A DNA stretch of 64,000 nucleotides from Intestinimonas butyriciproducens (lineage in GTDB: Bacteria; Bacillota; Clostridia; Oscillospirales; Oscillospiraceae), in contig NZ_CP011524.1 of the NCBI RefSeq assembly GCF_004154955.1, forward strand, positions 1,984,001 through 2,048,000, given 5' to 3'. Positions 22,470-50,153 of this stretch are shown in pieces. A program made the position numbers and the translations under genes. The notes beneath the pieces are model-generated. The model saw only the letters and a list, made by a program, of their open reading frames with translations. It was not told where the DNA came from and did not search any database. The first letter of the stretch is position 1, and every line of letters begins with the position of its first letter.

Positions 22470-22519
22470 TGGAGCTACTGGTCAGATTTGAACTGACGAC
22501 CTGCGCATTACGAGTGCGC
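22470..22519 (-). pseudogene. 3' half of host tRNA-Thr(CGU), cut by the prophage
   Basis: On the minus strand this gives anticodon loop CTCGTAA, the 3' anticodon stem TGCGC, a T-arm GTCAG-TTCAAAT-CTGAC, the acceptor strand CAGTAGC and TCCA. The 5' half is missing here and is found at 50115-50153. Joined, the two halves make a perfect cloverleaf. Confidence 0.92.
22506..22519. other. attL core
   Basis: CATTACGAGTGCGC, identical to 50115-50128; lies in the anticodon stem and loop of the interrupted tRNA-Thr. Confidence 0.9.
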
Positions 22520-22632
22520 CTAACTATGTTTTTTCTATATTCGTCTGTAGCCGCAAAGCCTTGTACTGCATAAGTTTTTCGGTTCCTCTGTTTCGCGTTG
22601 GCCCGCCGATTTATCTTAATTTTGATGCGCAC

Positions 22633-22653
22633 AAGCATCAAATAAGCACCAAA
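22633..22653. other. Putative integrase arm-type sites, left end
   Basis: AAGCATCAAA and AAGCACCAAA start 11 bp apart. The same pair, both AAGCACCAAA and with the same spacing, occurs at 50012-50032 near the other end. This is the pattern expected for tyrosine-integrase arm sites. Confidence 0.55.
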
Positions 22654-22700
22654 AAAACGGTCCCAAGGGCCCCCACGAGAACGAGGGAGTCTCTGGGACC
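22650..22700 (-). terminator. Terminator at the end of the late operon
   Basis: GGTCCCAGAG...TTGGGACC on the minus strand followed by GTTTTTTT. Confidence 0.75.
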
Positions 22701-22778
22701 CGCCCTTAACCCAGCTCACTCTTTTTTCTTCACCCCCGCCATCCATATAGATAATATAATTTTGTGCTCGCAAAGTAG

Positions 22779-22815
22779 CCCCCACCACCCCCTACTGGGG
22801 TGGCGGGGGCTTTCT
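22779..22815 (-). terminator. GC-rich hairpin after the lysis genes
   Basis: AGCCCCCGCCACCCC / GGGGTGGTGGGGGCT hairpin directly after the XhlA-like gene, without a clear T run. Confidence 0.6.
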
Positions 22816-22819
22816 TCGA

Positions 22820-23113
22820 CTATCTCACGATCTGTGCCGCAAGGAATCCCACAGCGCCCGAGACGGCCAGCCAAATGAGCTTGTCCACGATACCGTCCCA
22901 GCGCTTGGCGGGCCTCTCGGTGAGAGCCTTCACGTCGCTCTTAATCTCCTTCACGTCGGTCTCCACCGTCTCCTGCCGTGTCGCCAACACCTCCACGGAG
23001 GACACCAGCTTGTCCAGGTTGTCCTGTCGCTCCTCCACCTTGTCCAGCCGGTGGGTGTTCGATTTGCTCCGCTGATCAATTTCGGCCACCTTGACCGCGA
23101 TGTCCTCCGCCAT
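22820..23113 (-). CDS. XhlA-like phage lysis-associated protein
   Basis: The 97-residue protein has a long coiled coil (ALATRQETVETDVKEIKSD region) and one C-terminal membrane helix (LIWLAVSGAVGFLAAQIV). This topology is that of the XhlA/hemolysin-XhlA family which assists holin-endolysin lysis in PBSX-like phages. It is the last gene of the late operon, next to holin and amidase. Confidence 0.75.
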   Translation of the reverse strand: MAEDIAVKVAEIDQRSKSNTHRLDKVEERQDNLDKLVSSVEVLATRQETVETDVKEIKSDVKALTERPAKRWDGIVDKLIWLAVSGAVGFLAAQIVR

Positions 23114-23116
23114 GGC

Positions 23117-23365
23117 TTACTCCTCCCTGGCCCTGATTTCGTCCTTCAGGGCGTCCCCCGCAAGGGCGGCCTGTGTAAAGCTGTTGTTCTTCCACCACGC
23201 CGCCAGGGAGGCGGCTATGGTCCAGCCGGTGGCGATGAGGGTGTTGACGTCCTCGTCCGCGATGGGGATGGTCTGGACGCCCAGCATGCTCAGCACCTGG
23301 TTGACCAGGGCCAGCAGCAGTACAACGGTCCGGGCAATCGTGCCCGCGCTGATCTTGTTGGTCAT
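23117..23365 (-). CDS. Phage holin
   Basis: The 82-residue protein has two hydrophobic stretches (TIARTVVLLLALVNQVLSML and TLIATGWTIAASLAAWW) and a charged tail (ALKDEIRAREE), as in the phi-LC3 holin family, including the typical NQ and NN positions. GGAGAGGAG precedes the ATG at 23365. It should permeabilise the membrane so that the adjacent amidase reaches the wall. Confidence 0.85.
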   Translation of the reverse strand: MTNKISAGTIARTVVLLLALVNQVLSMLGVQTIPIADEDVNTLIATGWTIAASLAAWWKNNSFTQAALAGDALKDEIRAREE

Positions 23366-23381
23366 GATAAGTACTCCTCTC

Positions 23382-24185
23382 CTAATTTGCCGCGGCCAGC
23401 TTTTGCAGCAGGGCCGCCCCGTATTTGTACGCCTCCAGGTAGTCCATGGTCTCGTCGGCCAGCCCGAAGCGCGCCTGTACCGTCTGCCGGTTCGTCTTTG
23501 CACACGGCCCTCCCTCGCACAACACCAGGAATGCCTCCCAGGTCCCGCTTGTGTGCCGGATGGTGTACGGACAGTCCTTGCCGTTCCAGTGATTGTGCTG
23601 GACCACATGACCGATGGGGATACCATGCTCCTCCATCAGCAGCCGCACCAGCGAGGCCGCGTTTTCTCTGGCCTTGGCAAAGTCGCCGTCCGCGTTGACG
23701 CAGATTTCGACCCCAATGCTCCGGGCGTTGCCGGTCCCCTTGGAGCCGTCCCCCGCGTGGTAGGCCGTCTCGCCGTCGGACAGATGCTGCACAATAGCGT
23801 GGTCGTCCACCGTGTAGTGCCAGCTCACCAGAGCGGCCTCTCCGGCGGCGCTGTTCAGGTAGGAGGCATGGGCCGCCGCGTCGGCGCCCCTGGCCGCGTT
23901 GCCAGTCTCATGGATAGTAATGTAGCCGCACGGGTTGACGCCGCCCGGGCGGTTCTTCCGCCCGGCGTCGATGTACCGCGCCTGGATGCGCAGGCCGTTG
24001 TCTGTGACTCGCTGCGCGGCCTCCACAGCCTCCAGATAGTCCAGACTGACCCAGCCCTTCTCCGTCTGTCCCCAGCCGTCCCGTGTGGCCGTGACCGTCA
24101 CCACAGTGCCCTGCGCGTAAGCGCCGACCTTGGAATAGCCCGTTCCGGGGCCGCTGCGGATGTTCACGCCCACCGAGGGCGTCAC
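23382..24185 (-). CDS. N-acetylmuramoyl-L-alanine amidase (endolysin) with N-terminal SH3 domain
   Basis: The frame from GTG 24185 gives 267 residues. An SH3-type domain comes first (VNIRSGPGTGYSKVGAYAQG), then an amidase_2 catalytic domain with zinc ligands in ITIHETGN, the central WHYTVDD and QHNHWNGKDCPYTIR. It cleaves peptidoglycan during lysis. The start is uncertain: the frame stays open upstream (with KAISEAYQV before the GTG) and a good GGAGGAG lies 25 bases before, without an ATG. The original N-terminus may have been altered by the repeat-like insert at 24260-24345. Confidence 0.88.
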   Translation of the reverse strand: MTPSVGVNIRSGPGTGYSKVGAYAQGTVVTVTATRDGWGQTEKGWVSLDYLEAVEAAQRVTDNGLRIQARYIDAGRKNRPGGVNPCGYITIHETGNAARGADAAAHASYLNSAAGEAALVSWHYTVDDHAIVQHLSDGETAYHAGDGSKGTGNARSIGVEICVNADGDFAKARENAASLVRLLMEEHGIPIGHVVQHNHWNGKDCPYTIRHTSGTWEAFLVLCEGGPCAKTNRQTVQARFGLADETMDYLEAYKYGAALLQKLAAAN

Positions 24186-24199
24186 CTGGTATGCTTCGC

Positions 24200-24439
24200 T
24201 TATTGCCTTCTCCTCCTTGCCGTCCTCACCGACTTCGCATCCTTCGCTCCGCCCTCCCGGGCAGGTCTCATCCGCTCCGTCGTTCCTCCTCTCCCCATCC
24301 GACCCGCTGCCGTCGTGCTCGGATGGGGCCCTCCCTTGCGTTTGTAGACTAAAATCAGATTCTGGCTCGGGTCCCGGCCCTGCGCCATATCCCCAGTCGA
24401 TCTGTTGTAATAGTTCACCTTGCGTCCACCGTCGCCCAT
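24200..24439 (-). CDS. Small phage protein, C-terminus possibly altered
   Basis: The frame encodes 79 residues beginning MGDGGRKVNYYNRSTGDMAQ. The first 35 residues read like a normal phage protein. The remainder is arginine-rich and translated through a GC-rich hairpin segment (24284-24333) that resembles other spacer inserts in this prophage, so the true end may be lost. I recognise no family. Confidence 0.35.
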   Translation of the reverse strand: MGDGGRKVNYYNRSTGDMAQGRDPSQNLILVYKRKGGPHPSTTAAGRMGRGGTTERMRPAREGGAKDAKSVRTARRRRQ

Positions 24440-24463
24440 GATGAAATCAGATCATCCCAGGCT

Positions 24464-24544
24464 CTAAACGGTGTTCTGCGGCTCCACCTGATTGACTTCG
24501 GCGATGTCCATGATCTCGTTGATGTACTCGTACAGATGCTTCAT
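24464..24544 (-). CDS. Very small phage ORF
   Basis: A 26-residue frame (MKHLYEYINEIMDIAEVNQV then EPQNTV) is preceded by AAAGGA and sits between the XkdX-like gene and the next ORF in the same operon. No family is recognised. Confidence 0.45.
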   Translation of the reverse strand: MKHLYEYINEIMDIAEVNQVEPQNTV

Positions 24545-24575
24545 AATAATTTTCCTTTCCGGCCAAGTTGGCCTG

Positions 24576-24692
24576 TCACATATGGATAATCTCTTCCGCC
24601 TGATCGGCAGTGATCCACTTCGGGGCCATGAAGCACACCTGCTCCGCCGTCAGACGGCCCAGACGATACTGAATGCGGATAAACTCAACCAT
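24576..24692 (-). CDS. XkdX-family phage protein
   Basis: The 38-residue protein MVEFIRIQYRLGRLTAEQVC, ending PKWITADQAEEIIHM, fits the XkdX family encoded near the tail-fibre and lysis genes of PBSX-like phages. Its ATG overlaps the preceding stop (ATGGTTGA). The function is unknown. Confidence 0.75.
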   Translation of the reverse strand: MVEFIRIQYRLGRLTAEQVCFMAPKWITADQAEEIIHM

Positions 24693-24855
24693 CGCCTGTC
24701 CCTCCCATCATCAGCCCCAGCATGGCCGCCTCCAGCGCGGAGAGCCGTTCCGTCACTGTGGGCGAGATGGGGGGCTGGGCCTGTCCCATGGCCTCCAGCT
24801 CCGCGAGTTCTTCTGCTGTGGCGTCGCGGTAGATGCCGTTATCATAAACCCTCAC
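24685..24855 (-). CDS. Small phage protein upstream of the XkdX-like gene
   Basis: A GTG start preceded by GGAGG gives 56 residues (VRVYDNGIYRDATAEELAEL onward, with an LSALEAAMLGLMMG helix near the end). Similar short proteins often precede XkdX in clostridial phages. It overlaps both neighbours tightly, supporting it as a real gene of the operon. The role is unknown. Confidence 0.65.
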   Translation of the reverse strand: MRVYDNGIYRDATAEELAELEAMGQAQPPISPTVTERLSALEAAMLGLMMGGTGDG

Positions 24856-24866
24856 GTGCTTCCCTC

Positions 24867-26159
24867 CTATCTTGCCAAAATGCGAACTTTTACCGTGCCG
24901 GTTATGTCTGCTGCATTAAAATCCATGCGTAACTGCCCTGTAGGAACTCCTATTTTCCCGTACCGGGTTCCTCCGTTGGTTGGCCCCAGGTGTGCCCCAA
25001 ACAGAATATCAGTTGTGGCAGTTGACAAATATTCCGCAAAAGACCCGTCGCCAAATAATGTAACGTGGAATAGATATTGCTTCATAGTGTTCGCAGGAAC
25101 AACCCCCGGATAAAAAGCGACTTGTATCCCATCCACCGTAATGCTGGATGGCTGGTATTGTTTCGTATTAGCTGGGCATTCCACTGCGCACATCATCTCT
25201 TTGTATGTGCTCAACTGATGGGTTAGCGTAAGTTGGACACTTCCTACCCCGGCAGAATCGAGCACGATCCCATCATTGCGCAAGAGCTCTGTCCACTCTC
25301 CGCCCCCACCCGGCGCGCTCACCTTGCCCCACGCTCCGTCCACCACGCCCGCATACATGCCGTTGTCCTCTGCGGTCACCGTGGGGAGGCCGACGCCATC
25401 CGCACCTGCGGGACCCTGCGGGCCGGTGTCTCCGGTGTCACCTTTGGGCCCTTGCGGGCCTTGTGGCCCCGTCTCGCCCTGGATGCCCTGTAGACCCTGC
25501 TCTCCTGGATCTCCCTTCTCTCCCTGGGGACCGGCGGGACCGATAGGTCCCTGTTCTCCTCTGGGACCGGTCGCCGATACGCCGGTATCCACGCCGCCGA
25601 CGACCCAATTCCCATCGGGCCCAATGTTGGGGGCCGCCCCGCCGGAGTAGACACCGGTATCCTGATACGCCCCGCTCTCCAGGTCCCACACCATCCACGT
25701 CTGATCCCCGGACAGCTTGGGCGGGTGGACCGCCGCCGCTTCCGCCCGGTCTGCGGCGGCCACTGCGTCGGCCTTGGCCTGCGTGACCCTGGCCTCCATC
25801 TGGGCAAGCTCCGAGGGCTCGACGCTCGGAAATGCCTCCGCAGCGTTGATGCTCCCGCTCACCAGCAGTTCAAACTGGTTGCTGTGGGCCACCGTATCCC
25901 CTTTGAGCCCCCGGAGCTGACAGCGGTACAGCCCGTCGGAGGCCAGGATATCCCGCGTGAGGTCCACCCACAGCACGTCCCCGGTCCGCTCCAGGTCCAC
26001 CACGTTCTTTACCTTCCCCAGAGCCATATCCAGCTTCACCGCCCACCCCGCGTCCAGGTCCGCGGCGATCTCCAGCCGCCGGTGCAGGTGGTCCGACTCG
26101 TAGCCGATCACACGATCTCCCAGATCCAGACTCACCCACCAGTTATCAAGCCTAATCAT
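24867..26159 (-). CDS. Phage tail fibre / baseplate protein with collagen-like repeat
   Basis: The 430-residue protein has an N-terminal baseplate-type domain, a helix rich in Ala ([20 protein letters not shown]), then about 20 Gly-X-Y triplets ([20 protein letters not shown] and onward, residues about 198-260), and a beta-rich C-terminal domain with notably lower GC. Collagen-like stalks form trimers and carry receptor-binding tips, so host recognition is the likely role. The ATG overlaps the stop of the preceding small gene (TGATG). Confidence 0.8.
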
Positions 26160-26266
26160 GCCTGCGCCTCCTCCAGCAGCGCCCGGACCTCTGCGCGCCA
26201 GCGCAGGGGCACGTCGTCGATGGTCTTTAAGCCCTTGCGGATCATGTCAACGTACAGCTTAGACAC
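26156..26266 (-). CDS. CD1375-family small phage protein
   Basis: From a GTG with GGGAGG upstream, 36 residues: [20 protein letters not shown], ending [15 protein letters not shown]. The pattern matches the CD1375 family found beside tail-fibre genes in clostridial phages. The function is unknown. Confidence 0.72.
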
Positions 26267-26642
26267 TTGTCTCACCTCCCAGCAGCGCCTCGGCAAGCTC
26301 CGCGATGGCGAGCTGCGCTGCAGTGTTGTTGTCCTCGACCACCTGTGCCAGCTCCGCCACGGCAAGCTGGGTCTGGGTGAGCGCGTCCGGCTCCGGCTCG
26401 GGCTCAGGGGTGGGCTCCGGGACGGGGAGCTGTGTCAGGCAGATCGATCCGCCCGTCTGTCCCACCCGCAGCCAGTCGGCCACGGTATAGGAGGCCAGCA
26501 GGAAAGGCCCGTCCTCCAGCTCGGTCCACACCTCCAGGCTCTCTCCCAGTTCCACCGGCTCCGCCGTCTCCAGACATACCATCTGTGCGCCAGGGACAAA
26601 GGACAGCAGTTCCGCCTCCTGGCCATTGGTTTTTAAGATCAT
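26259..26642 (-). CDS. Phage structural-region protein with Pro-Glu linker
   Basis: The 127-residue protein has a beta-rich N-terminal part, a PEPTPEPEPEPD linker and a helical tail with repeated LAxAELAxx units (LAVAELAQVV, LAIAELAEAL). It lies in the fibre region and overlaps the next gene. No family is recognised with confidence. Confidence 0.65.
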   Translation of the reverse strand: MILKTNGQEAELLSFVPGAQMVCLETAEPVELGESLEVWTELEDGPFLLASYTVADWLRVGQTGGSICLTQLPVPEPTPEPEPEPDALTQTQLAVAELAQVVEDNNTAAQLAIAELAEALLGGETSV

Positions 26643-26654
26643 GCTCCACCCTCC

Positions 26655-27089
26655 TCAGTTAAAAACATAAAATTTAGCCGCCGTCCCATCGATGCCATAG
26701 GGAACGCGAGAACCGTTGCTATAGGTGTGCCTCACCAAAAGCGTATCAAAGGTGACGGAAAAGAAACTTCCCGTGTATCCAGTGCTTGCCGCATTGGATT
26801 TGGTTACATTCAGCCCTGATGCATAAAATTGTGCTGATGTAGCTGAATCTGTTACTCCCGCCGCAGCTCCAAAAACTGTGATGTAATAGTCAGTTGACTC
26901 GCATGCCATCATCAATATTGGGCTCCCGATAAGCAGGGATTTCAATTCCGCCGCAGTAATTCCGCTGAACGTAAAGTCTCTAAAAGATGTGGAGGTGCAG
27001 GTCGCGTCGATTACCTTTCGAAGTTTCTTCCCGCTGCACAGCTTGGTCGACAAATTGTCACCCATCACCGGCAAAATACAATCGCTCAT
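26655..27089 (-). CDS. Hypothetical phage tail-region protein
   Basis: The 144-residue protein (start MSDCILPVMGDNLSTKLCSG, GGAGG upstream) is rich in Thr, Ser and Tyr and appears beta-stranded, as in fibre tips. Its GC content is lower than that of its neighbours. A receptor or fibre accessory role is inferred from position only. Confidence 0.6.
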   Translation of the reverse strand: MSDCILPVMGDNLSTKLCSGKKLRKVIDATCTSTSFRDFTFSGITAAELKSLLIGSPILMMACESTDYYITVFGAAAGVTDSATSAQFYASGLNVTKSNAASTGYTGSFFSVTFDTLLVRHTYSNGSRVPYGIDGTAAKFYVFN

Positions 27090-27102
27090 ACCCCCACCCT
27101 CC

Positions 27103-27969
27103 TCACACCGTGCCCACGAGCTGGATCGGTATATTGACGGACGGAGCTGCGCCGTCGGTCCTGGTGTAGACCCGGATTTTGCCAGCCATAGTCTCGATCC
27201 TGCGAATGTTGTTGGCGAACTCCTCCACCATAAGCTCCGAGGCGACGACATCAGAGGTCTGCACCACGCCCACGCAGGGAGTCATGGCCGCCGTAATACC
27301 AGATACTGTGACGTCCTTGTAGTACCCGCCCCCGGATACCTCCGTCCATGTTCCGGTGGGGATCGTCGCCGTATACCGGTACTTCACCGCCGCCCCGATG
27401 TCCGCCGGGGTGGGCTTGCTCCCCTCATGATACACGGCATAATCCGTGCCGCCCAACTTGATCCGCAGCCGCTGCTGGCCCCCTTGTATCTTTAGCGTGG
27501 CCTCAGAGCCGTCAGCGCCATAGTCTGTCAGATATAGCCCATCGTCTACAGTGCCCTCTACATTTGCGTTTTTCATCAGGCAGCCTGACAGGCGGTTTGA
27601 CGAGTCTCCAGTCCTTAAGACCACGCTTGCTATGGTTTTGGCAATATCAAGGTTTCCCGTCAGCGTTCCGCCCGACAGGGGGAGCGCCCCCACCTGGGCC
27701 GCCGTCACCCCATGGGGGTTGTTGGTGTTGGCGATGTGCGCGCTGGTTGCCGTTCCGTCCGCCTTGGCGTTCCAGGCCGTCCGCTCCGCCGCGCTGACGT
27801 GCTTCACCCCGTCCGCTTCGTGCGCCGCCAGCGCCGCCCCCTCCGCCTTGCTCTCCTCCAGGTCCTTCAGCGCCGCGTCGACGGCGTCCATATTGGCGTT
27901 GAGCGCGTCGATCCTGGCATAGTCGCTGCCGCCCGGCTTATTGAGGCCATAATTCGTTGTCTGCTCCAT
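27103..27969 (-). CDS. Phage tail fibre protein
   Basis: The 288-residue protein begins MEQTTNYGLNKPGGSDYARI, a pattern of clostridial tail-fibre N-termini, and contains the segment NNPHGVTAAQVGALPLSGGT common in fibre shafts. The ATG at 27969 follows GGAGG and the stop of the upstream gene by one base. It lies directly after the baseplate genes, as expected for a fibre. Confidence 0.78.
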   Translation of the reverse strand: MEQTTNYGLNKPGGSDYARIDALNANMDAVDAALKDLEESKAEGAALAAHEADGVKHVSAAERTAWNAKADGTATSAHIANTNNPHGVTAAQVGALPLSGGTLTGNLDIAKTIASVVLRTGDSSNRLSGCLMKNANVEGTVDDGLYLTDYGADGSEATLKIQGGQQRLRIKLGGTDYAVYHEGSKPTPADIGAAVKYRYTATIPTGTWTEVSGGGYYKDVTVSGITAAMTPCVGVVQTSDVVASELMVEEFANNIRRIETMAGKIRVYTRTDGAAPSVNIPIQLVGTV

Positions 27970-27970
27970 C

Positions 27971-28504
27971 TCAGAGCTCACCTCCTAAAATCTCATCCCA
28001 GGTCCGGCTCTCCAGCTCTCCCCAGGTCTTCTCCTCCAGCTCTCCCCAAGTCCGGTAGAGGATGATGTAGTCGTATGCCAGGTGCGCGGGCTTGATCTCC
28101 TCCAGGGCCGCCGACAGGTCGTCCAGGTTGGGCGGCACCCCGATGCTGCTCAGGAACCGGATGTCGAAACGGTATGCCTCCGGCTGCTCCTCCACCGCCA
28201 CCTGGCCGTTGTAAAAGCTCTCGGCCACGTTCTGGATCATGGCCACGGTGGTGGTGCCCTGCCCCCGCAGCTTGGAGAGGATGCGGGTCCGCCGGTAGGC
28301 GTCGGGGCGGGACACGTCCACATCCAGCCCCAGGGACGCCTCCCAGCAGGACAGTCCCCAGGTGGCCTTGTTAACGTCCAGTTGATCGATGAGCCCGTTC
28401 TCCGCCGTCCACAGGGCCTCGGTCTGCTGCTCCAGCGCCCCCTGGAGGGCCGCGATCTGGGGCGAGGCGGCGTAGAAGTCCGGCAGATAGCCAATCAGTT
28501 TCAC
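27971..28504 (-). CDS. YmfQ/DUF2313-like baseplate protein
   Basis: The 177-residue protein begins MKLIGYLPDFYAASPQIAAL and contains GLDVDVSRPDAYRRTRILSK, which fits the Mu gp48/YmfQ family acting with the baseplate J protein. The C-terminus ends in three similar TWGELE/TWDEI units, which is unusual. The ATG overlaps the stop of the baseplate J gene. Confidence 0.82.
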   Translation of the reverse strand: MKLIGYLPDFYAASPQIAALQGALEQQTEALWTAENGLIDQLDVNKATWGLSCWEASLGLDVDVSRPDAYRRTRILSKLRGQGTTTVAMIQNVAESFYNGQVAVEEQPEAYRFDIRFLSSIGVPPNLDDLSAALEEIKPAHLAYDYIILYRTWGELEEKTWGELESRTWDEILGGEL

Positions 28505-29544
28505 GTCAGCGTCACCGTCCCCTTCACAGGCACCTGCTCATCCCCGATGCTCACGTTGCCCGTGCCGCCGTTGATCGTCAGCGCCGTAAAATCGGACACT
28601 CCCTGGATGCTCAGCAGCAGATAGGCCACCTGGTTATACCGCAGGGTGGAGGCCGAGAAGGCCAGCTCCATGAGATAGGTGTCCAGCGCCGCCTCGAACT
28701 CCGTCTTAACCTGGCTGAGGGGGGCGCTCCCATCCAGCGTCACCGCCGCCGTCACGTTGATGCTCAGCGGCGCGGCCGCCGCCACCGTCACCGTGGCCCC
28801 GATGGGCCGGTTCGCCTCGATGTGGGCCTGTACCGCCGCCACGATCTCCGCCGAGGCGGGCTCCATGCCGCCGTCCACCAGCACCACCTTGACCGTCCCC
28901 GCGCCGTTCCACAGGGGGAATACCCTCGCGGCGCCCACGCCCGCCACCTCCAGCGCCCACTGCTCGTAGTGGTAGGCGTTTCCGGAGGTGGCCGGGCGGC
29001 TCAGGTAGGCGTGGATGCGCTCATAGAGGGCCCCGTCGCTCTCCGGGTCCGTGCCGCCGGCGGCGGGGCCGTTGGTCCAGGAGGACAGCCCCGGCAGCGT
29101 CGCCGCCATCTGGGACAGCTCCCCCGCCTCCACGTTGTACGCGCCGCCCACCTCCGCCGCCTCCGCCGTGCCTGCGTCGCCGCTCCCGGTGAGGACCACC
29201 GCCTCCGTCAGGGCGAACTCCAGCCCGCCCGGCGTGACGAACACCGTTCCCGCCGGTACCGTCGCCCCCGCCGTGCCGGTGAGGGTCATGGTACACCGTG
29301 CTTTGGCGCCCGGCCTCCGGGTGATGCCGTACTTGGCCCCCTCCAGGTCCAGGTAGCCCCCCGAGCTCTCGTCCACGAAGGCGATGGACACCACCGCGTT
29401 CATCGCCTGGTAGACCTTCCAGATCTCCAGCGCGGCGGGCCCCGCCATGGAGTCCAGAAAGCTCCCCTCACGGGTCTCCAGGCTCTCTCCGGCCTCCGCC
29501 AGGATGGCCGCCTTGATGCTCTCAGGTGTGATATCTTCAAACAC
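28501..29544 (-). CDS. Baseplate J / gp47-like protein (XkdT type)
   Basis: The 347-residue protein starts from GTG (FEDITPESIKAAILAEAG) with GGGGAGG upstream. Family features include REGSFLDSMAGPAALEIWKV, the DLEGAKYGITRRPGAKA region, GTDPESDGALYERIHAYLSR and PATSGNAYHYEQWALEVAGV. It forms the wedge of a contractile-tail baseplate. Confidence 0.92.
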   Translation of the reverse strand: MFEDITPESIKAAILAEAGESLETREGSFLDSMAGPAALEIWKVYQAMNAVVSIAFVDESSGGYLDLEGAKYGITRRPGAKARCTMTLTGTAGATVPAGTVFVTPGGLEFALTEAVVLTGSGDAGTAEAAEVGGAYNVEAGELSQMAATLPGLSSWTNGPAAGGTDPESDGALYERIHAYLSRPATSGNAYHYEQWALEVAGVGAARVFPLWNGAGTVKVVLVDGGMEPASAEIVAAVQAHIEANRPIGATVTVAAAAPLSINVTAAVTLDGSAPLSQVKTEFEAALDTYLMELAFSASTLRYNQVAYLLLSIQGVSDFTALTINGGTGNVSIGDEQVPVKGTVTLT

Positions 29545-29555
29545 GCGTATTCGCC

Positions 29556-30389: not shown

Positions 30390-30427
30390 GTCCTCGCAAA
30401 CTCCTCTCCGCTTCGCCCGCCTTCCGG

Positions 30428-30505: not shown

Positions 30506-30555
30506 TCAGGGCCCGTGTTGGGCGCCTTTCCCTGCCTGTCACGCTGTGCGCCCTC

Positions 30556-31557: not shown

Positions 31558-31567
31558 GACGGCCTCC

Positions 31568-32161: not shown

Positions 32162-32163
32162 CC

Positions 32164-40700: not shown

Positions 40701-40731
40701 CTACGTAGCTCAGCTCCTTGTTAATTCCTTT

Positions 40732-42009: not shown

Positions 42010-42025
42010 ACTTGCTTTTCCCTCC

Positions 42026-43369: not shown

Positions 43370-43396
43370 GTTGTCTCCTTTCTGCAATAGTCCGGT

Positions 43397-43636: not shown

Positions 43637-43661
43637 GGATTCACCTCCCTTCATTTTGGGA

Positions 43662-43790
43662 TTGACAATTACGCGTATGTGTAATATAGTGTGTCTACAA
43701 GGAACATCATATTACGCTTTCGCGGCCCATGACTGCATTGTATTCTGCTTTCGCGTAAAAGTCAAGGGGCCAAATTATGCTTACGCGTAA
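43662..43790. promoter_or_regulatory. Divergent promoters and operators of immunity region 1
   Basis: Plus strand: TTGACA (43662-43667), 17 bases, TATAGT (43685-43690). Minus strand: TTGACT (43760-43765), 17 bases, TACAAT (43737-43742). Operator-like copies of TTACGCGTAA occur at 43669-43677, 43712-43717 (half), 43751-43758 and 43781-43790 (full palindrome), two of them inside promoter spacers. Confidence 0.75.
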
Positions 43791-43822
43791 TTCGGCGAAG
43801 TGTACAAGAAAGGCTGATGAAT

Positions 43823-44242
43823 ATGTCTGATTTGTACAATCGTATTGCAGAGCTGTGCCAAAATTATGGCATCACAATTACGGCTATGTGCAGAGAGTCG
43901 GGAGCAAGCCGAGCCTCATTGTCCGATTTAAAGGTTGGAAGAAAGCAAAACCTGTCGACGGAAACGCTAGATAAGATTGCAGACTATTTTGGTACAACTG
44001 TCGATTATCTACTGGGCCGTACCGACGATGCTGAGAACAACGATCGCTTTGGGCTCGACATTTCAGATGATGAGATTCGTGAGCTTGAAGAAACAAAAAA
44101 AGCGCCCACCCCGGAGGGTGAGCGTCCAAAAAGCAAACTGCGGTCTATCGCGCGCCTAGAAGATTCCAAGATTACGCCCGAACAGGATGAACAGATTGCG
44201 GATTATATTGATTTTCTGCTTTCTAAGAAAAAGGAGCTATGA
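43823..44242 (+). CDS. CI-like XRE repressor
   Basis: The 139-residue protein has an N-terminal XRE domain (LCQNYGITITAMCRESGASR, then LSTETLDKIADYFGTTVDYL) and a charged tail. The ATG at 43823 has suitable spacing from AAAGG; the ATG at 43817 is too close. Coupled by ATGA to an ImmA-type protease gene, it is the likely repressor of immunity region 1. Confidence 0.88.
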   Translation: MSDLYNRIAELCQNYGITITAMCRESGASRASLSDLKVGRKQNLSTETLDKIADYFGTTVDYLLGRTDDAENNDRFGLDISDDEIRELEETKKAPTPEGERPKSKLRSIARLEDSKITPEQDEQIADYIDFLLSKKKEL

Positions 44243-45309
44243 GTGCAAATATTATTAAGTATCGCAAAGCGTTTGACACATCCCAAACCCTACTCGATAT
44301 AACCGGCACTGACGAATTTCCTCTTGATTTTGATGTCTTATTTTCTAAGAAAAAAGGTGCCCAAATCCTTGTTTCCAGCCTTAAGGATTACAATACGTGG
44401 ATCTCCTCAAAAAATTTGCAAAAGTGGGTGCCCCTATTTATTGCGGATGCAAAGTGTTTTTACTATTCAGATAGAGATACGTACATGATAATCTATAATG
44501 AGTGTCGGCCCGAAGCTAGGATACGGTTTTCCTTGGCGCACGAGTTAGGTCATATTGTTCTGGAACATCTGAATGATGAGCGTACAGAACTTTCCAGAGG
44601 GGGCGTTGATGACCCTACCTACTATGCTATGGAGGGGGCTGCAAACACATTTGCAGGGAATTTACTTGCGCCGCCCATACTTATTGACGACTTTCTCTCC
44701 GGATCAAAATTTGATGTTGAGCGCATTTCTACCCGCTTTAACATTTCGCCAAGTGCTACAAAAGCCTATAGAGCAGAGGATTATAAATACTGGAAATCAT
44801 TAACTCCGAGCAAGCATGAAAAGGCCATCTTGAAAAGGTGTCATTCGGCATTACATAAGCACATTTGCATTGACTGCGGCGCAACCTTTGAAATTGAAGG
44901 TTCTCTGTTTTGCCCGATTTGCGGTGCAAGTTCATCGAGTTTGTACTATCGAGGAAAGGATAGTGTTGATGTGATATACCCTGGAGTAGAGCTCAATAAA
45001 AGCGGGCAGGCTAAACAATGCGTGCAATGTAAAAATGAAGAACACTTAGAGAAGTCTACATACTGTATGATATGCGGAAAAACTATTGTTAATCAGTGTA
45101 CATATGCAATCGCCAACAATGTGCCTTGCGAGTATAATCCATGCTCACACGATGAGCCGCTTCCGGGGAATGCCCGATTCTGTCCCTATTGTGGGAGTGA
45201 AACTACCTTCCTCAAGGACGGGGTGCTCCGCCCTTGGGATGCGCCTCAAAAGCCACGTCTATTTGCTGCCCTTGACAGCGAGGAGGACGACAGTCCTCTT
45301 CCTTTTTAG
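44239..45309 (+). CDS. ImmA/IrrE metallopeptidase fused to zinc-ribbon repeats
   Basis: The 356-residue protein has an ImmA/IrrE domain with zinc motif AHELGHIVLEH. From about residue 205 it carries several CxxC-type ribbons: CIDCG/CPICG, CVQCK, CMICG and CPYCG. ImmA-type proteases cleave the partner repressor during induction. The C-terminal zinc-ribbon array is not part of the usual ImmA and may bind nucleic acid or sense stress. GC content is markedly lower than in the host genes. Confidence 0.85.
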   Translation: MSANIIKYRKAFDTSQTLLDITGTDEFPLDFDVLFSKKKGAQILVSSLKDYNTWISSKNLQKWVPLFIADAKCFYYSDRDTYMIIYNECRPEARIRFSLAHELGHIVLEHLNDERTELSRGGVDDPTYYAMEGAANTFAGNLLAPPILIDDFLSGSKFDVERISTRFNISPSATKAYRAEDYKYWKSLTPSKHEKAILKRCHSALHKHICIDCGATFEIEGSLFCPICGASSSSLYYRGKDSVDVIYPGVELNKSGQAKQCVQCKNEEHLEKSTYCMICGKTIVNQCTYAIANNVPCEYNPCSHDEPLPGNARFCPYCGSETTFLKDGVLRPWDAPQKPRLFAALDSEEDDSPLPF

Positions 45310-45321
45310 CAAGATACACCA

Positions 45322-45391
45322 CCGAGTGGCATACGCCGCCATGAGGTCTGTGCCCAGGAAGGGCACCCGTTTGATTTCGAGTTTGTTTTCC
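45322..45391 (-). pseudogene. Remnant of a second antirepressor gene
   Basis: The minus strand reads NKLEIKRVPFLGTDLMAAYA, matching the antirepressor start at 43369 (NELEIKTVPFMGTELMAAR), with AAAGGAG before it. The start codon is lost and the frame continues without similarity into the 3' end of the ImmA gene. Confidence 0.7.
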
Positions 45392-45412
45392 CTTTTGATC
45401 TCCTTTCTAAAC

Positions 45413-45553
45413 TTACTCCTCGACCAGCTGCTTCAGCGCCGCTTGCAGCCTGGTCTCTACGCTCTTTGGCTCGTAATGACCGTTAAGCACCCCACTCAAA
45501 TACTTAGGATTCCACCCCACGGCTTTGGCCAGTTGCTTAGATGAACAGGACAA
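45413..45553 (-). CDS. Small HTH-like ORF, start uncertain
   Basis: A frame of 46 residues, KQLAKAVGWNPKYLSGVLNG then HYEPKSVETRLQAALKQLVE, has the pattern of a helix-turn-helix. The only starts are a TTG with a poorly spaced GGAGG, or an out-of-frame ATG at 45569, so it may be frameshifted. Confidence 0.4.
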   Translation of the reverse strand: MSCSSKQLAKAVGWNPKYLSGVLNGHYEPKSVETRLQAALKQLVEE

Positions 45554-45565
45554 CCTCCAACCAGC

Positions 45566-45691
45566 TCATGCTACATCCTCCTTGCGTACAAACTTGATCT
45601 TGATGTCCACATCGTACTTTTCCGACAGAATCTCCGAGAGCACCGCCGCCAGGCGTTCAACATTCAAGTGGTTCGTCTGCTCGTGTTCCAC
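45566..45691 (-). CDS. Small phage protein of immunity region 2
   Basis: A GTG start with AAGGAGGTG upstream encodes 41 residues (VEHEQTNHLNVERLAAVLSE, then a charged beta-like tail KYDVDIKIKFVRKEDV). No family is recognised. Confidence 0.5.
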   Translation of the reverse strand: MEHEQTNHLNVERLAAVLSEILSEKYDVDIKIKFVRKEDVA

Positions 45692-45732
45692 TCAAATCAC
45701 CTCCTTCCTATCTAGCTGGCGTTGAGGTCATA

Positions 45733-46380
45733 TCAACTCGCCGCCAGCCTCTGCTGGAGCAGCATCCGCTTAATTTGCTGGTAATCCATCCGCATCTCCA
45801 CCAGTACGCCTATCTGCTTCGTGATGCGCACAACGTTGTCCATCTCTTCCGCAGTTAGATAATCGGCGGCCACCGAACCTTTCGGGGCGTTCCGCGCTTT
45901 GCGAAGCTGGGCGGCGCTCATCCCGAAGGCCGCGCGATACGCGAGGTCGGTATAGTGCTTGTACCACATCCCCTTGTGAGGGCTTTCCGGGATGCAGTCC
46001 CTGATTGCGTCCGTCAGGTCTCTCCGGGTCGGGAGCATCTTTGCCCGGTTGACCTGCCGACTGACCAATTCTCTCCGCATTGCGTAGAACTGCCTGACCA
46101 ATTCCTTTTTGAAGGCCACTACGGTAGGCGTGTTCTTGAGCAGTGTCATCAGGAAGGTGGCTTGCTCTTCGTTCAGCTTGACAATCTCCTCTGGGCGACC
46201 CCCGGAGCTTTCTGTCTCATATGCGCCCAAAAGTCCAAACTCCAAAAATGTGGATTCGTGTTTCCGGATAGCGTCTTTAACGCGGCGGTGGTTCATACCG
46301 GTTACTTCCGCAATCACCTTTGATGTGGTGAAGGGTATCGCGTCTAGTCTGTTTGGGTCCAAAAAGACTAAGTCGTTCAT
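45733..46380 (-). CDS. Rha-family phage regulatory protein
   Basis: The 215-residue protein has the Phage_pRha pattern: FTTSKVIAEVTGMNHRRVKD, then PEEIVKLNEEQATFLMTLLK and AFKKELVRQFYAM. Rha-type proteins interfere with or control phage growth. It is the second gene after the Cro-like gene of immunity region 2. Confidence 0.85.
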   Translation of the reverse strand: MNDLVFLDPNRLDAIPFTTSKVIAEVTGMNHRRVKDAIRKHESTFLEFGLLGAYETESSGGRPEEIVKLNEEQATFLMTLLKNTPTVVAFKKELVRQFYAMRRELVSRQVNRAKMLPTRRDLTDAIRDCIPESPHKGMWYKHYTDLAYRAAFGMSAAQLRKARNAPKGSVAADYLTAEEMDNVVRITKQIGVLVEMRMDYQQIKRMLLQQRLAAS

Positions 46381-46401
46381 TGTGACTCCCTTCTGGTTGA
46401 T

Positions 46402-46632
46402 TTATCTCATTTCATTTGGTACGTATCGTGTACCTTCTTCGGCAAAAAAAATTTCAATAGGATTGTCAATTCCGAGCAATAGAATCATTTTCGATATTTC
46501 ATCGCTATCAAATATGCCCTTTTTCATTTTTGAATAGAAGGTCTTTTCAGTCATTCCAAGTTGTTTTGCAACCCTTCTTTGTGATAAACCGCGCTCTGCA
46601 ATAAGACCACGCAACCTGCTCGTTGCAACCAT
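46402..46632 (-). CDS. Cro-like XRE protein of immunity region 2
   Basis: The 76-residue protein MVATSRLRGLIAERGLSQRR, then VAKQLGMTEKTFYSKMKKGI, is a compact XRE domain (DUF739-like). GGAGGTG precedes the ATG at 46632. Its promoter overlaps operators facing the divergent repressor. Confidence 0.82.
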   Translation of the reverse strand: MVATSRLRGLIAERGLSQRRVAKQLGMTEKTFYSKMKKGIFDSDEISKMILLLGIDNPIEIFFAEEGTRYVPNEMR

Positions 46633-46659
46633 CGTAATCACCTCCACCTAGTACGCCTT

Positions 46660-46757
46660 ACGTACCAAGTATACCAAAACGTTCTGGTACGTGTCAAGCG
46701 ATTTTTGAAGATAATTAAAATATTTTTTGTTGCACATTACGCAATTTGTGTTATAAT
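46660..46757. promoter_or_regulatory. Divergent promoters and operators of immunity region 2
   Basis: Minus strand: TTGACA (46692-46697), 18 bases, TATACT (46668-46673). Plus strand: TTGCAC (46730-46735), 16 bases, TATAAT (46752-46757). An inverted repeat ACGTACCA (46660-46667) / TGGTACGT (46685-46692) straddles the minus-strand -10. A further TGGTACGT lies inside the Cro-like gene near 46417. Confidence 0.78.
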
Positions 46758-46787
46758 GAACGCACAAATGATTGGAGTGTGAACGTG

Positions 46788-47273
46788 ATGAGCGTCGGCC
46801 AAAACATAAAACAGCGAAGGCGAATGCTAGATATGACGCTAGAAGACGTCGCAAAAGATGTCGGTGTTAGTCGGCAAACGCTCAGCCGATATGAAACAGG
46901 TGTGATAGGAAATATCCCGTCGGATAAGATTGAATTGCTCGCTAAATCGCTTCGTACAACACCTGCCTATCTTATGGGGTGGGAAGACGAAAAGGGCGTT
47001 ACGGACATTGGGCTAGTAGCTATTGAAATTGCCAAAAAATATGGGTTGGATGCATCTGTAGTTTATGACGCAATGGACAATCTGGATCGCTTGCTTCCGA
47101 TTGACGAGCAAGCGATCATTGCCGAGGTAAAAAGAATGAGGCCCACCCCCGTTTCCGAGAGTGGGCCTATTGATCCGCGCGATAAAAAGTTTCTTGAGTT
47201 GTTCAGCCAGTTAACGCCAGACCAGAAAGAGTTGGTCCTCGCCCAGCTAAGAGTCCTAAAAGAGCGTCAATGA
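46788..47273 (+). CDS. XRE-family repressor of immunity region 2
   Basis: The 161-residue protein has an N-terminal HTH (MSVGQNIKQRRRMLDMTLED, VGVSRQTLSRYETGVIGNIP, PAYLMGWED) and a helical tail ending LELFSQLTPDQKELVLAQLR. It lacks an S24 peptidase domain, so RecA-type self-cleavage is not expected. The operator motif differs from that of immunity region 1. Confidence 0.85.
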   Translation: MSVGQNIKQRRRMLDMTLEDVAKDVGVSRQTLSRYETGVIGNIPSDKIELLAKSLRTTPAYLMGWEDEKGVTDIGLVAIEIAKKYGLDASVVYDAMDNLDRLLPIDEQAIIAEVKRMRPTPVSESGPIDPRDKKFLELFSQLTPDQKELVLAQLRVLKERQ

Positions 47274-47379
47274 TTTCATCTTTATTTCCATCACTTAACT
47301 GACTAAAAAGCTGCGCAGCTTCTTTGTCAATGCCTTGGAGCACCTCGCTCTTTGGGGTTTGATTTATGGTACTGGTCAT
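47203..47379 (-). CDS. Small ORF overlapping the repressor 3' end
   Basis: The 58-residue frame starts MTSTINQTPKSEVLQGIDKE with GGGAGGAG upstream. It then reads LFSQLSDGNKDEIIDALLGL, resembling the repressor's own C-terminal LFSQLTPDQKELVLAQLRVL. Its last 71 bases are antisense to the repressor gene. It may be a convergent regulator or partner; the function is unknown. Confidence 0.45.
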   Translation of the reverse strand: MTSTINQTPKSEVLQGIDKEAAQLFSQLSDGNKDEIIDALLGLLAGRGPTLSGLALTG

Positions 47380-47883
47380 AGACGCTCCTCCCTTTATCCT
47401 CTGTTCTAATTTATTATATCGAAAATCCGGGTTCTGCGCAATTCTTTTGCTCACACAATATTACTGTGTACAGCCCGTATTAGTCGCGCTCAAACTATAT
47501 CTTGGCCATGGCCCATTATACCGGGAATCCCAACATAAGCCCAATAGAGCGCGCCCACGTAGCTTGCGCCTCAAATTCCTAAGCGCCGTCGAGTACAATT
47601 TATAGTAATATTTAGCGGAATTATTTCTTTTCACTTCATTTTAAATTAGCAATGCAACTAAAACTTTGCGGGCAAAGGTGTACGCTCTTTTCTGGCGGTA
47701 TATGTCGCCATGAGGACCGGCTAAGAGATTGCCACACACGCTGTAGTGTTCCGTGGTACCAAAGTGCCCGTCATCCATCACAGGCGGGGCCCTTGGTCTG
47801 TTTGATTATCCGGCAGATTTGGCGCTATCTGGTGGCTCAACCCTGAGAGGTGCGCTTCAGATCAGAGCGGAGGTGTCATAATG
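47380..47883. other. Intergenic stretch without recognised genes
   Basis: About 500 bases between immunity region 2 and the type I toxin locus. Base composition is mixed and I see no supported ORF, known RNA or repeat, apart from a TGGCGGTATATGTCGCCA inverted pattern near 47693-47710. Confidence 0.5.
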
Positions 47884-47908
47884 CAAAAAAGCCGCCCGAA
47901 GGCGGCTC

Positions 47909-48136
47909 TTGACAATCTCATATCTGGCGGTTATACTGAAATCAGAAAGAGGGCGCTACCGGCAGACGGTCAGCCCCTCGCTGTGTTACAAGAAGTAACC
48001 GCTGAGCTGGGGAGCTTGTGGGCGGTTACTTCGAAAAAAGTATAAGGCGGCGCTACCGGCAGACGGTCAGCCCCTTATGCTTGAGCTACAAGAAGTAACC
48101 GCGCAGTTGGGGAACTGGGGGCGGTTACTTCTTTTT
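47909..48136 (+). ncRNA. Antitoxin RNA locus of type I system 2, tandemly duplicated
   Basis: Promoter TTGACA (47909-47914), 17 bases, TATACT (47932-47937). Two similar units of about 100 bases follow. Each has GCGCTACCGGCAGACGGTCA (from 47953 and 48051), ACAAGAAGTAACCGC and a hairpin closing GCGGTTACTTC. The second hairpin is followed by TTTTTT and overlaps the 3' end of the opposed toxin gene, the layout of ratA-like antitoxins. Confidence 0.75.
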
Positions 48137-48208
48137 TATCTGGAAAACCAGACCGATAATGCCGATGATGACAAGCGAGTAAGCAAAAAGCTCACTGTAT
48201 GTAACCAT
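48125..48208 (-). CDS. Putative holin-like toxin (TxpA/BsrG-type)
   Basis: The 27-residue peptide MVTYSELFAYSLVIIGIIGL ends VFQIKKK: a short head, one membrane helix and a lysine tail, as in the holin-like toxin family. GGGAGGTGAGG precedes the ATG and is sequestered by CCCCTCC upstream, a usual translation block of type I toxins. Antisense RNA from 47909 overlaps its 3' end. Confidence 0.85.
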   Translation of the reverse strand: MVTYSELFAYSLVIIGIIGLVFQIKKK

Positions 48209-48336
48209 GGCCTCACCTCCCCTCCTTTGCAGGAGGGGGCAAGAAGTCCCCTCCGGGATGGAGGGACCAACCGCCTACCGTTGCGGATAGCGCCGTCGCC
48301 AGAATATCACACTTTTTGACAGAGCGCAACAATAAA

Positions 48337-48372
48337 AAAGTCCTCCCGGCGCTACCAACACCGGAAGGACAG
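48337..48372 (-). terminator. Hairpin with T-run upstream of the integrase
   Basis: On the minus strand GTCCTTCCGG...CCGGGAGGACTTTTTTA. It may shield the toxin region from transcription out of the integrase side. Confidence 0.6.
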
Positions 48373-48463
48373 GCAAAATGACCCAGACCACTAAATCAAG
48401 GCCCCTTTGCGCCCTTTTATGATAGCATAAAAAGGGCCTGGGTGCAAGAAAAAGGAGGACCCA

Positions 48464-49885
48464 ATGGCTACGATAAAAAAACAGGGCAAAGGTTACAAGA
48501 TCACCGTTTCCCATGGCTATGACATCAACGGCAAGCAGTTACGTGAGCACATGACCTGGGTGCCGCCGGCCGGGATGACAGAGAAGCAGCTGGAGAAGGA
48601 GCTGCAGCGCCAGGCCGTACTCTTTGAGGACCAGGTGAAGCACAGCGCTACCCACGACGGCAACATCAAGCTGGTGGACTTCACCGCCCTGTTCCTGAAG
48701 GATTATGCCTATCCTACCCTGAAGGTCCGCACCGCCTACGGGTATGAGGAAAGAATGGCCCGGGTGAACCAGGCCTTGGGACATATCAAATTGAAGGACC
48801 TGAAGCCGGGCCATCTGGCGGCATTCTATGCCAACCTCCAGGAGGAGGGGATGCGCTGCCAGCGGCGGGCCCGCTGCAAGGTGGACTTCAAAGCCTGGAT
48901 GAAAGAGCGGCACACCACCATGGCCGCCTTGTCCCGGGACACCGGCGTGTCCATTTGGAGCTTTAAGCAGATGCGGGACGGCAACGTCATAGACCAGGCC
49001 AGCGCGGAGCGGATCGCTTCCGCCCTAGGGGAGAAATATGACCAGCTCTTTGAGCTTCAGCGGGATATGACCCCCTTGAAGCCGGGGACCATCCACACCT
49101 ATCACCGTATACTTTCGGCGGTCCTATACCGGGCCGTGAAGTGGGGGTATATCAAGAGCAATCCGGCATCCTGTATGGACCTGCCCAGCCTCAAAGACCG
49201 GAAAGCCAAATACCTGGATGAACCGGACGCCAGGCGGCTCCTGGAGCTGCTGCGGGATGAGCCCATCAGGTGGCGGGCCATCATCACCTTTGACCTGCTG
49301 TCCGGGCTCCGGCGCGGGGAACTGCTGGGGCTCCGCTGGGAGGACGTGAACCTGGACGCCCAGACCATCACGATCTCCCAGACCTCCAACTATATCCCAC
49401 CGAAGGGGGTATACACCGATAGCCCTAAGACGGCCACGTCCAACCGACCGCTGAAGCTGTCCCGCTCCGCCTTTCTGCTGCTCCTGGAGTATAAACAATG
49501 GCAGGATGCCCAGCGGGAGGCCCTGGGGGATGCCTGGATGGACGAGGACGGCCGGGTATTCACCCGGGACGACGGCAGACCCCTGTTCCCGGACAGCGTG
49601 TCCCAGTGGTTTACCAAATTCGTGAAGCGCACCGGCTTGCCGAAGGTCACCGTCCACTCCCTCCGGCACACCTACGCCAGCCTGATGATCGGGGACGGGA
49701 CGCCCCTGGTGGTCGTGTCCCACAAGCTGGGCCACGCTCAGCCTAGCACCACCTCCAACATCTACGCCCACGTGATCGCCTCCGCAGAGGAGCGAGCCAC
49801 CAACACCTTCAGCCGCTTTGATGACCTGGTGGTGCCAGGTGCAGAGCTGCCCAGGGATGAAAAGAAAAAAGCCGCCGGGGAATAA
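48464..49885 (+). CDS. int: Tyrosine site-specific integrase with inserted HTH
   Basis: The 473-residue protein has an N-terminal arm-binding domain (GKGYKITVSHGYDINGKQLR) and a core-binding domain (TAYGYEERMARVNQALGHIK). The catalytic domain shows Arg in SGLRRGELLGLRWED, HSLRHTYASLM, LGHAQPSTT and Tyr in NIYAHVI. Residues about 145-205 look like an XRE-type HTH (HTTMAALSRDTGVSIWSFKQ, ASAERIASALGEKYDQLFEL) inserted in the core-binding domain. AAGGAGG precedes the ATG. It is adjacent to attR and a tRNA-Thr gene. Confidence 0.93.
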   Translation: MATIKKQGKGYKITVSHGYDINGKQLREHMTWVPPAGMTEKQLEKELQRQAVLFEDQVKHSATHDGNIKLVDFTALFLKDYAYPTLKVRTAYGYEERMARVNQALGHIKLKDLKPGHLAAFYANLQEEGMRCQRRARCKVDFKAWMKERHTTMAALSRDTGVSIWSFKQMRDGNVIDQASAERIASALGEKYDQLFELQRDMTPLKPGTIHTYHRILSAVLYRAVKWGYIKSNPASCMDLPSLKDRKAKYLDEPDARRLLELLRDEPIRWRAIITFDLLSGLRRGELLGLRWEDVNLDAQTITISQTSNYIPPKGVYTDSPKTATSNRPLKLSRSAFLLLLEYKQWQDAQREALGDAWMDEDGRVFTRDDGRPLFPDSVSQWFTKFVKRTGLPKVTVHSLRHTYASLMIGDGTPLVVVSHKLGHAQPSTTSNIYAHVIASAEERATNTFSRFDDLVVPGAELPRDEKKKAAGE

Positions 49886-49903
49886 ATTCCCGGCGGCTTT
49901 TTC
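49871..49903. terminator. Bidirectional terminator between integrase and tRNA-Thr
   Basis: GCCGCCGGGGAA / TTCCCGGCGGC with A and T runs on the two sides; it overlaps the integrase stop codon. Confidence 0.85.
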
Positions 49904-49904
49904 G

Positions 49905-49979
49905 TGGAGCTGATGGTGGGAATCGAACCCACAACCCCGGCATTACGAGTGCCGTGCTCTACCTTTGAGCCACATCAGC
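49905..49979 (-). tRNA. tRNA-Thr (anticodon CGU), carried by the prophage
   Basis: On the minus strand: acceptor GCTGATG/CATCAGC, D-arm GCTCAAAGGTAGAGC, anticodon arm CGGCA-CTCGTAA-TGCCG, T-arm GTGGG-TTCGATT-CCCAC, then TCCA. All stems pair. The anticodon CGT is the same as in the host tRNA split by the element, so it probably replaces that function. It lies downstream of the intact host tRNA promoter at 50182-50210 with no obvious terminator between. Confidence 0.96.
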
Positions 49980-50011
49980 ATTTATATATTTTCGTGGAGT
50001 TTTGCGGAAAT

Positions 50012-50032
50012 AAGCACCAAACAAGCACCAAA
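50012..50032. other. Putative integrase arm-type sites, right end
   Basis: Two copies of AAGCACCAAA, 11 bp apart, matching the pair at 22633-22653. Confidence 0.55.
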
Positions 50033-50114
50033 ACTAGATTTTTGAGGGTGTGAGGGTGGAGGCGGCCCAGTAATTGCAAGGGCTGGCGGGTTTTCTACTC
50101 GGTCTTGACCTCAT

Positions 50115-50128
50115 CATTACGAGTGCGC
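50115..50128. other. attR core
   Basis: CATTACGAGTGCGC, identical to attL at 22506-22519. Confidence 0.9.
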
Positions 50129-50153
50129 TGCTCTACCCCTGAGCCACAGTAGC
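50115..50153 (-). pseudogene. 5' half of host tRNA-Thr(CGU)
   Basis: On the minus strand GCTACTG-TG-GCTCAGGGGTAGAGC-A-GCGCA-CTCGTAA, after which the sequence departs into prophage DNA that cannot close the anticodon stem. The complementary 3' half lies at 22470-22519. Confidence 0.92.

Follow-up and report, generated by a model that had tools for sequence, protein, structure and literature searches.

The 64,000-nucleotide (nt) stretch of the Intestinimonas butyriciproducens chromosome analysed here (assembly GCF_004154955.1, contig NZ_CP011524.1, positions 1,984,001-2,048,000, forward strand), hereafter the window, carries a prophage integrated within a tRNA-Thr(CGU) gene, the two halves of which lie at opposite ends of the element, while a second, complete tRNA-Thr(CGU) lies inside it (Table 1). 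The two halves share a 14-bp core, CATTACGAGTGCGC, which sits in the anticodon arm of the gene and for which no further exact copies were found in the window. Identity ends at both core boundaries, and when up to two mismatches are allowed a single extra copy appears, at 49941-49954, within the prophage tRNA itself (0.33 such matches are expected from shuffled sequences). The joined halves were assessed with ARAGORN, RNAfold and pair counts; after joining the flanks in silico at the core, ARAGORN calls a 75-nt tRNA-Thr(CGT), in agreement with the split gene proposed in the initial annotation. That neither end restores the gene was likewise borne out, as ARAGORN found no tRNA in the stretch at the attL attachment site and, in the attR stretch, the prophage tRNA alone and none from the host half.

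The split gene and the prophage-borne tRNA

Read on the minus strand, the attR side shows first a promoter-like site and the broken 5' half; a gap with arm-type repeats separates these from the prophage tRNA, which is followed by a hairpin and by the integrase gene in convergent orientation. At the far end the second repeat pair comes first, then the core together with the 3' half, and last a terminator-like hairpin, presumably the terminator of the original tRNA gene. The repeat motif AAGCAYCAAA occurs exactly four times in the window, as two pairs with 11 bp between the starts in each (0.29 occurrences expected; none of 100 shuffles reached four). The prophage tRNA is identical to the rebuilt host tRNA at 57 of 75 positions. 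From the TCGTAAT of the broken 5' half to the prophage tRNA the gap measures 136 nt, and neither a promoter-like nor a terminator-like site was found when it was scanned; the hairpin behind the prophage tRNA was not reported by the simple terminator scan. When the expected transcript is folded for minimum energy, a cloverleaf appears for the prophage tRNA and not for the broken half, although six of 100 shuffles fold equally well. The annotation was right that the element holds a distinct, complete tRNA-Thr(CGU) and that this tRNA lies downstream of the host promoter. Its proposal of complementation in trans by a whole tRNA stands as regards the whole replacement with the same anticodon, but not as regards the arrangement, which is cis, because the replacement belongs to the same transcription unit as the broken gene.

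The genome (G000) is a single contig of 3,224,506 bases with 54 RF00005 tRNA matches, 53 of which were classed by ARAGORN on fetched stretches, the remaining one being the prophage tRNA. Among these matches the threonine anticodons are GGT (one), TGT (two) and CGT (one), the last being the prophage copy, which is the only complete tRNA-Thr(CGU) of the 54. A separate tRNA-Thr(CGT) pattern run over the whole genome gave two matches, the displaced 3' half and the prophage tRNA, and hence no other complete copy by either route. The disrupted gene is the host's single tRNA-Thr(CGU) gene, and the host has no other copy. The second tRNA-Thr(TGT) (G000:C1:1663744-1663815, L024) scores 43.8 bits, the lowest of the 54 matches, and may be a weak or foreign copy, which bears on how far tRNA-Thr(UGU) could replace tRNA-Thr(CGU).

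Table 1. Features of the prophage and of the tRNA-Thr(CGU) gene it splits, in window positions
Feature	Positions	Strand	Remarks
Terminator-like hairpin behind displaced 3' half	22439..22470	-	Terminator scan; -20.7 kcal/mol
Host 3' half of tRNA-Thr(CGU), attL side	22470..22519	-	Completes a tRNA when joined to the 5' half
Core CATTACGAGTGCGC, copy at 3' half	22506..22519	.	14 bp; exact repeat
Prophage body	22520..50114	.	Sheath, baseplate J, Gp48, major head protein, holin, endolysin, repressors
Second arm-type repeat pair	22633..22653	+	AAGCAYCAAA matches
Tyrosine integrase, convergent with prophage tRNA	48464..49885	+	PF00589, E 1.8e-23; PHROG 1 integrase, E 2.7e-63
Hairpin with T-run behind prophage tRNA	49862..49904	-	-27 kcal/mol, z -5.69; overlaps integrase gene end
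Complete prophage tRNA-Thr(CGU)	49905..49979	-	ARAGORN; Rfam RF00005, 72.2 bits
Arm-type repeat pair AAGCACCAAA	50012..50032	+	Starts 11 bp apart; in gap between 5' half and prophage tRNA
Core CATTACGAGTGCGC, copy at 5' half	50115..50128	.	14 bp; exact repeat
Host 5' half of tRNA-Thr(CGU), attR side	50115..50153	-	Broken after anticodon loop; forms a complete tRNA with 22519-22470, none alone
Host tRNA promoter-like site TTGACG-17-TATCAT	50182..50210	-	10/12 consensus positions

Recurrence of the layout

Relatives of the integrase were drawn from genome contigs, viral contigs, 300 genomes of the family and 394 of the order, keeping the best 30 loci of each genome search. The layout with a whole tRNA is found in the window and at L025 (genome G015; integrase 63% identical), L027 (G111; 56%) and L041 (IMG/VR; 66%); at these three loci the 5' half breaks directly after TTCGTAAT, short repeat pairs occupy the gap, and a complete tRNA-Thr(CGU) comes next. 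A promoter-like site no more than 130 nt upstream of the half was scored at L027 and L041, and at L025 one was seen by eye further up, ahead of an additional tRNA-like remnant. In G111 both ends have repeat pairs spaced 11 bp; G015 has this spacing at one end only, the pair at its other end being 22 bp apart with what looks like a variant copy in between. The 3' half was located in G111 on the same contig and in G015 on a different one, and in each of these genomes host and element tRNAs are alike at 56 of 76 positions.

An integrase tree of 37 rows, from which L029-L039, L081, L084, L100, L103 and other partial or more distant loci were left out, places the window integrase in a 14-member clade (support 100/99). 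Twelve of its members have a threonine tRNA or tRNA half, either next to the integrase or at the opposite end; two (L028, L078) have none. Members with a whole tRNA occupy two places in the tree (L027 with L241; L074 with L025 and L041), interspersed with others (L118, L026, L102, L043, L077) in which the tRNA is restored or an intact one lies alongside, which indicates more than one gain or loss of the trait. At L241 the integrase is 49% identical and the tRNA is in the same place, though no host half precedes the core. The side of the 5' half was unreadable for L040 and L042; the latter was found through its integrase, which adjoins the 3' half, and says nothing on tRNA placement, because the sole complete tRNA of its 16.7-kb record is tRNA-Lys-like by eye and the record may be a fragment.

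The layout was also sought independently of the integrase, with a pattern consisting of a CGU anticodon loop followed by a second tRNA-Thr(CGU) arm at 111-171 nt. It matched nine of the 394 order genomes, and a reversed control pattern none. Seven of the nine combine a broken 5' part with a complete tRNA (G000, G013, G300, G391, G647, G421, G617); G504 and G549 were dropped, the first part not being a tRNA half. Further cases were found by other means in G003, G015, G018, G067 and G111. Some sequence past the loop still fits a tRNA in G391, G617, G647, G300 and G003, where the break may lie further 3'. Fourteen IMG/VR contigs matched (L237 and L238 being one sequence), six of them with half plus whole: L232 (the record of L041), L233, L239, L240, L242 and L244, of which L239 and L242 look like close relatives. 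Seven others hold a core-like 7-mer and a whole tRNA with no half; of these only L241 has a related integrase adjacent, and the other six may be chance and were not counted. L236 has no tRNA. The half-plus-whole cases found in these ways include elements whose integrase is unrelated to that of the window or was not seen.

On L233, L242 and L244 the 3'-half end carries a tyrosine-integrase match (only 24-27% identity) and the 5'-half end the tRNA. The tRNA thus appears to track the side of the broken promoter rather than the integrase, and the idea that its placement results merely from travelling with the integrase is weakened accordingly. Over all 18 cases of half plus whole, the gap has no promoter-like site in 15 and no terminator-like site in any, and a promoter-like site lies within 130 nt upstream of the half in 11. 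At the nine loci where both halves are available, the two halves of a locus form 11 or 12 of the 12 possible stem pairs, against a mean of 9.0 for foreign pairs (n = 72), and none of 20,000 permutations attains the observed total; the pairing of L242 and L244 is not independent evidence, because their 3' halves were picked by acceptor complementarity, and among the foreign pairs the 5' half of G015 fits the 3' half of G111 perfectly and L233 and L244 are interchangeable.

The same pattern adapted to tRNA-Thr(GGU) gave 30 contigs, with one half plus whole (stacked identical halves), 15 whole only, one with both intact and 13 with none; for tRNA-Lys(UUU), 39 contigs gave no half plus whole, 23 whole only, eight with both intact and eight with none. 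These counts suggest that the layout is not equally frequent across isotypes, with the half test modelled on tRNA-Thr(CGU) and liable to miss halves of other isotypes. The stacked case is a viral contig (L279, 12922-13089) with identical tRNA-Thr(GGU) 5' halves in tandem followed by a complete copy.

Broken halves and possible tRNA turnover in relatives

In G003 and G013 a broken half stands beside a complete tRNA of a different type. No match to the window integrase was found there in the fetched stretch (about 1.3 to 1.6 kb past the tRNA), and no 3' half was found by pattern, although G003 is an 82% complete draft. In G018 two 5' halves, both broken after TTCGTAAT, follow one another ahead of a complete tRNA, and the pattern search found no 3' half there either. 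G003 and G002, both in the genus of the window, have in common an upstream MatE gene (76 and 77% identical); behind it G003 presents the promoter, a broken half of one type and a complete tRNA of another, and G002 the promoter and then only the complete type of G003. The complete tRNA of G013 is 97% like that of the viral record L241, which fits a phage origin, though transfer may have run in either direction.

As a control for vertical descent tRNA-Thr(GGU) proved poor, because most congeners gave partial or cross matches, and tRNA-Thr(UGU) was used instead. Within the genus, many genomes of which are drafts, tRNA-Thr(UGU) is identical in eight of 11 genomes (that of the window included) and 97% identical in two, and G001 gave no full-length match; for tRNA-Thr(CGU), ten sequences from nine genomes, the rebuilt host gene included, fall into seven forms with a mean pairwise identity of 0.81 and a minimum of 0.67. 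It is an evenly balanced proposition that promoter-capturing elements have repeatedly and successively replaced tRNA-Thr(CGU) in the host's order, each round leaving a 5' half as a fossil and turning the tRNA of the arriving element into the gene of the cell, with the tRNA in effect inherited from phages while tRNA-Thr(UGU) descends vertically.

Several other observations concern tRNA-Thr(CGU) in these genomes. An identical 76-nt tRNA-Thr(CGU) occurs in G002, G003, G006, G010, G300 (another genus), and G052 and G341 (another family), at loci L184, L181, L182, L189, L227, L157 and L158, and its flanks differ among G006, G010 and G300. Directly behind the foreign tRNA-Thr(CGU) of G003 (L182) lie a VbhA-like antitoxin and a Fic gene (PF18495, PF02661), and similar VbhA/Fic remnants were seen by eye behind those of G013 (L199) and G002 (L181); this stretch is possibly the end of one kind of lost element. 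One of the two copies in G009 lies amid coding sequence and may belong to an element. G549 has six pattern matches, at L256, L263, L265 and elsewhere; they include at least one 3' half with no 5' part and possibly form an array of elements at one site.

Interpretation and relation to known systems

The split, the failed rebuilding, the whole replacement, its uniqueness, its position and its recurrence are all read from sequence, and they are probably best explained by tRNA-dependent integration with the replacement tRNA placed behind the host tRNA promoter. Recombination by the integrase would take place between attP and the anticodon arm of the only host tRNA-Thr(CGU) gene, through a core too short for rebuilding it. 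The tRNA of the element, which lies between the arm-repeat pair and the integrase, in the direction of the target gene and with its own putative hairpin terminator behind, would be transcribed from the host tRNA promoter after the dead 5' half and the spacer, and RNase P and 3' processing enzymes would cut it out of the transcript. Excision would restore the host gene, whereas loss of the tRNA-bearing end of the prophage by any other route would leave a cell with no tRNA-Thr(CGU); as the relatives suggest, the tRNA of a decayed element may stay as a chromosomal gene beside the fossil half. The host would depend on the prophage tRNA in part or in full. The tRNA-Thr(UGU) may read ACG by wobble and the host has two such genes, so the dependence may be partial.

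Several points weigh against this explanation. The gap contains a promoter-like site of its own in G391, G647 and G421, and seven of the 18 cases have none within 130 nt upstream of the half, although several of these are GC-rich viral contigs to which the consensus may not apply. The centroid fold of the expected transcript shows no cloverleaf. L233, L242 and L244 were selected by a pattern that demands a tRNA near the half. Moreover, the CGU gene may be dispensable in the presence of two tRNA-Thr(UGU) genes, and no tRNA-Thr(CGT) pattern match was obtained in five of 79 genomes with completeness of 90% or more and contamination of 5% or less.

The foremost alternative is that the prophage tRNA serves mainly the element's own ACG-rich genes during lytic growth, its position at attR being incidental and the lysogen using tRNA-Thr(UGU), for which two genes are at hand. 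Of the 278 threonine codons in 13 prophage open reading frames (ORFs) 107 are ACG, compared with 42 of 291 in 10 flanking ORFs, five of the latter counted with no family check, and the prophage tRNA may on this account additionally serve the phage in lytic growth. As the main role this is rather unlikely, since target, anticodon and position behind the half recur jointly with different integrases and the tRNA-Thr(CGT) pattern is present in 74 of the 79 good neighborhood genomes; the two roles are, besides, compatible with each other. It is far less probable that this tRNA is no part of the present element, having been left between the half and the integrase by an earlier integration or by the host: stacked halves do occur, as in G018, and G015 has an extra tRNA-like remnant by eye, but the tRNA is enclosed by the core repeats and flanked by arm repeats and integrase, likewise at L025, L027 and L041, and in the same place at L241, though with no host half ahead of the core. 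Ordinary integration with restoration of the target, as in close integrase relatives (L118, and L026 and L102 judged from contig ends), can practically be dismissed, because the element sequence fails to restore the target tRNA at either junction.

As for the rest of the window, the prophage genes fall into contractile-tail, head, lysis and regulatory classes. No terminase or portal match was obtained among 35 scanned prophage ORFs, and the prophage may be defective or tail-like. Where the tape-measure gene would be expected (32900-34150), several look-alike short starts broken by small inserts were seen by eye, which looks like a degraded or recombining tape-measure region. A protein near the tail genes (24867-26159) has collagen-like repeats (PF01391), and an ordinary SAM riboswitch lies at 8738-8837 (81.8 bits).

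The strategy proposed here for the prophage is already published as tRNA-dependent lysogeny, a name absent from the annotation, defined in 2024 for actinobacteriophages (Fionnbharth, Gabriela, Gaia and others) by Guerrero-Bustamante and Hatfull (PMC10865867), who suggest its use outside Actinobacteria, citing prophage Lj965, and include related integrases some of which rebuild the tRNA while others do not. Their description has features that recur here: a tyrosine integrase (PF00589 in the window), an attB in a host tRNA gene, a short core (8-17 bp in those phages, 14 bp here) with the target unrebuilt, a carried tRNA of the same isotype that is unlike the host's, arm-type sites, and related integrases with and without rebuilding. 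The systems differ in that the Fionnbharth tRNA is located in a different gene region and has its own promoter, since the 136 bp before it drive a reporter, whereas here the tRNA lies directly behind the broken half and no promoter was found between; in the targets, which there are Lys, Ile2 and Leu tRNAs, Thr-CGT figuring in its Table 2 only as a rebuilt target; and in that the requirement of the tRNA for lysogeny is shown there and is a possibility here. A term search of the text available for that article returned neither 'host promoter' nor 'remnant'.

Rhizobial prophages with a replacement tRNA-Leu (vTRX32-1, PMC8631192; Lo5R7ANS-like in S. meliloti, PMC11476347) also break the target mid-gene by a short core and carry a whole isoacceptor, and PMC11476347 proposes that such replacement diversifies tRNA genes; these cases concern other hosts and another isotype, and the host promoter, stacked halves and retention after loss are unmentioned in the accessible parts of both articles. 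Canonical Islander-type islands and prophages in tRNA genes, as described in the part of PMC4383910 at hand, likewise have a tyrosine integrase, a tRNA target and a displaced fragment at the far end, but restore the target with their own sequence, which the prophage of the window does not. The available portions of PMC12429752, PMC13015707 and PMC10688831 hold no further case of the layout. A literature search that covered few subscription papers, and is weak evidence in this respect, found no placement behind a host tRNA promoter, no stacked halves and no Oscillospiraceae case; the placement behind the host promoter and the signs of repeated gene swaps in the order are apparently new.

Taken together, the locus would extend tRNA-dependent lysogeny to the Oscillospiraceae and their neighbors, and points to a replacement parked behind the host tRNA promoter as a simple solution to the problem of its expression. 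A whole tRNA frees the element from matching its target beyond a few bases and may let it integrate at one site across several species. Phage turnover at a single locus would be readable, layer by layer, from the fossil halves, and the repeated overwriting of a gene of the translation machinery by mobile elements would become a testable idea.

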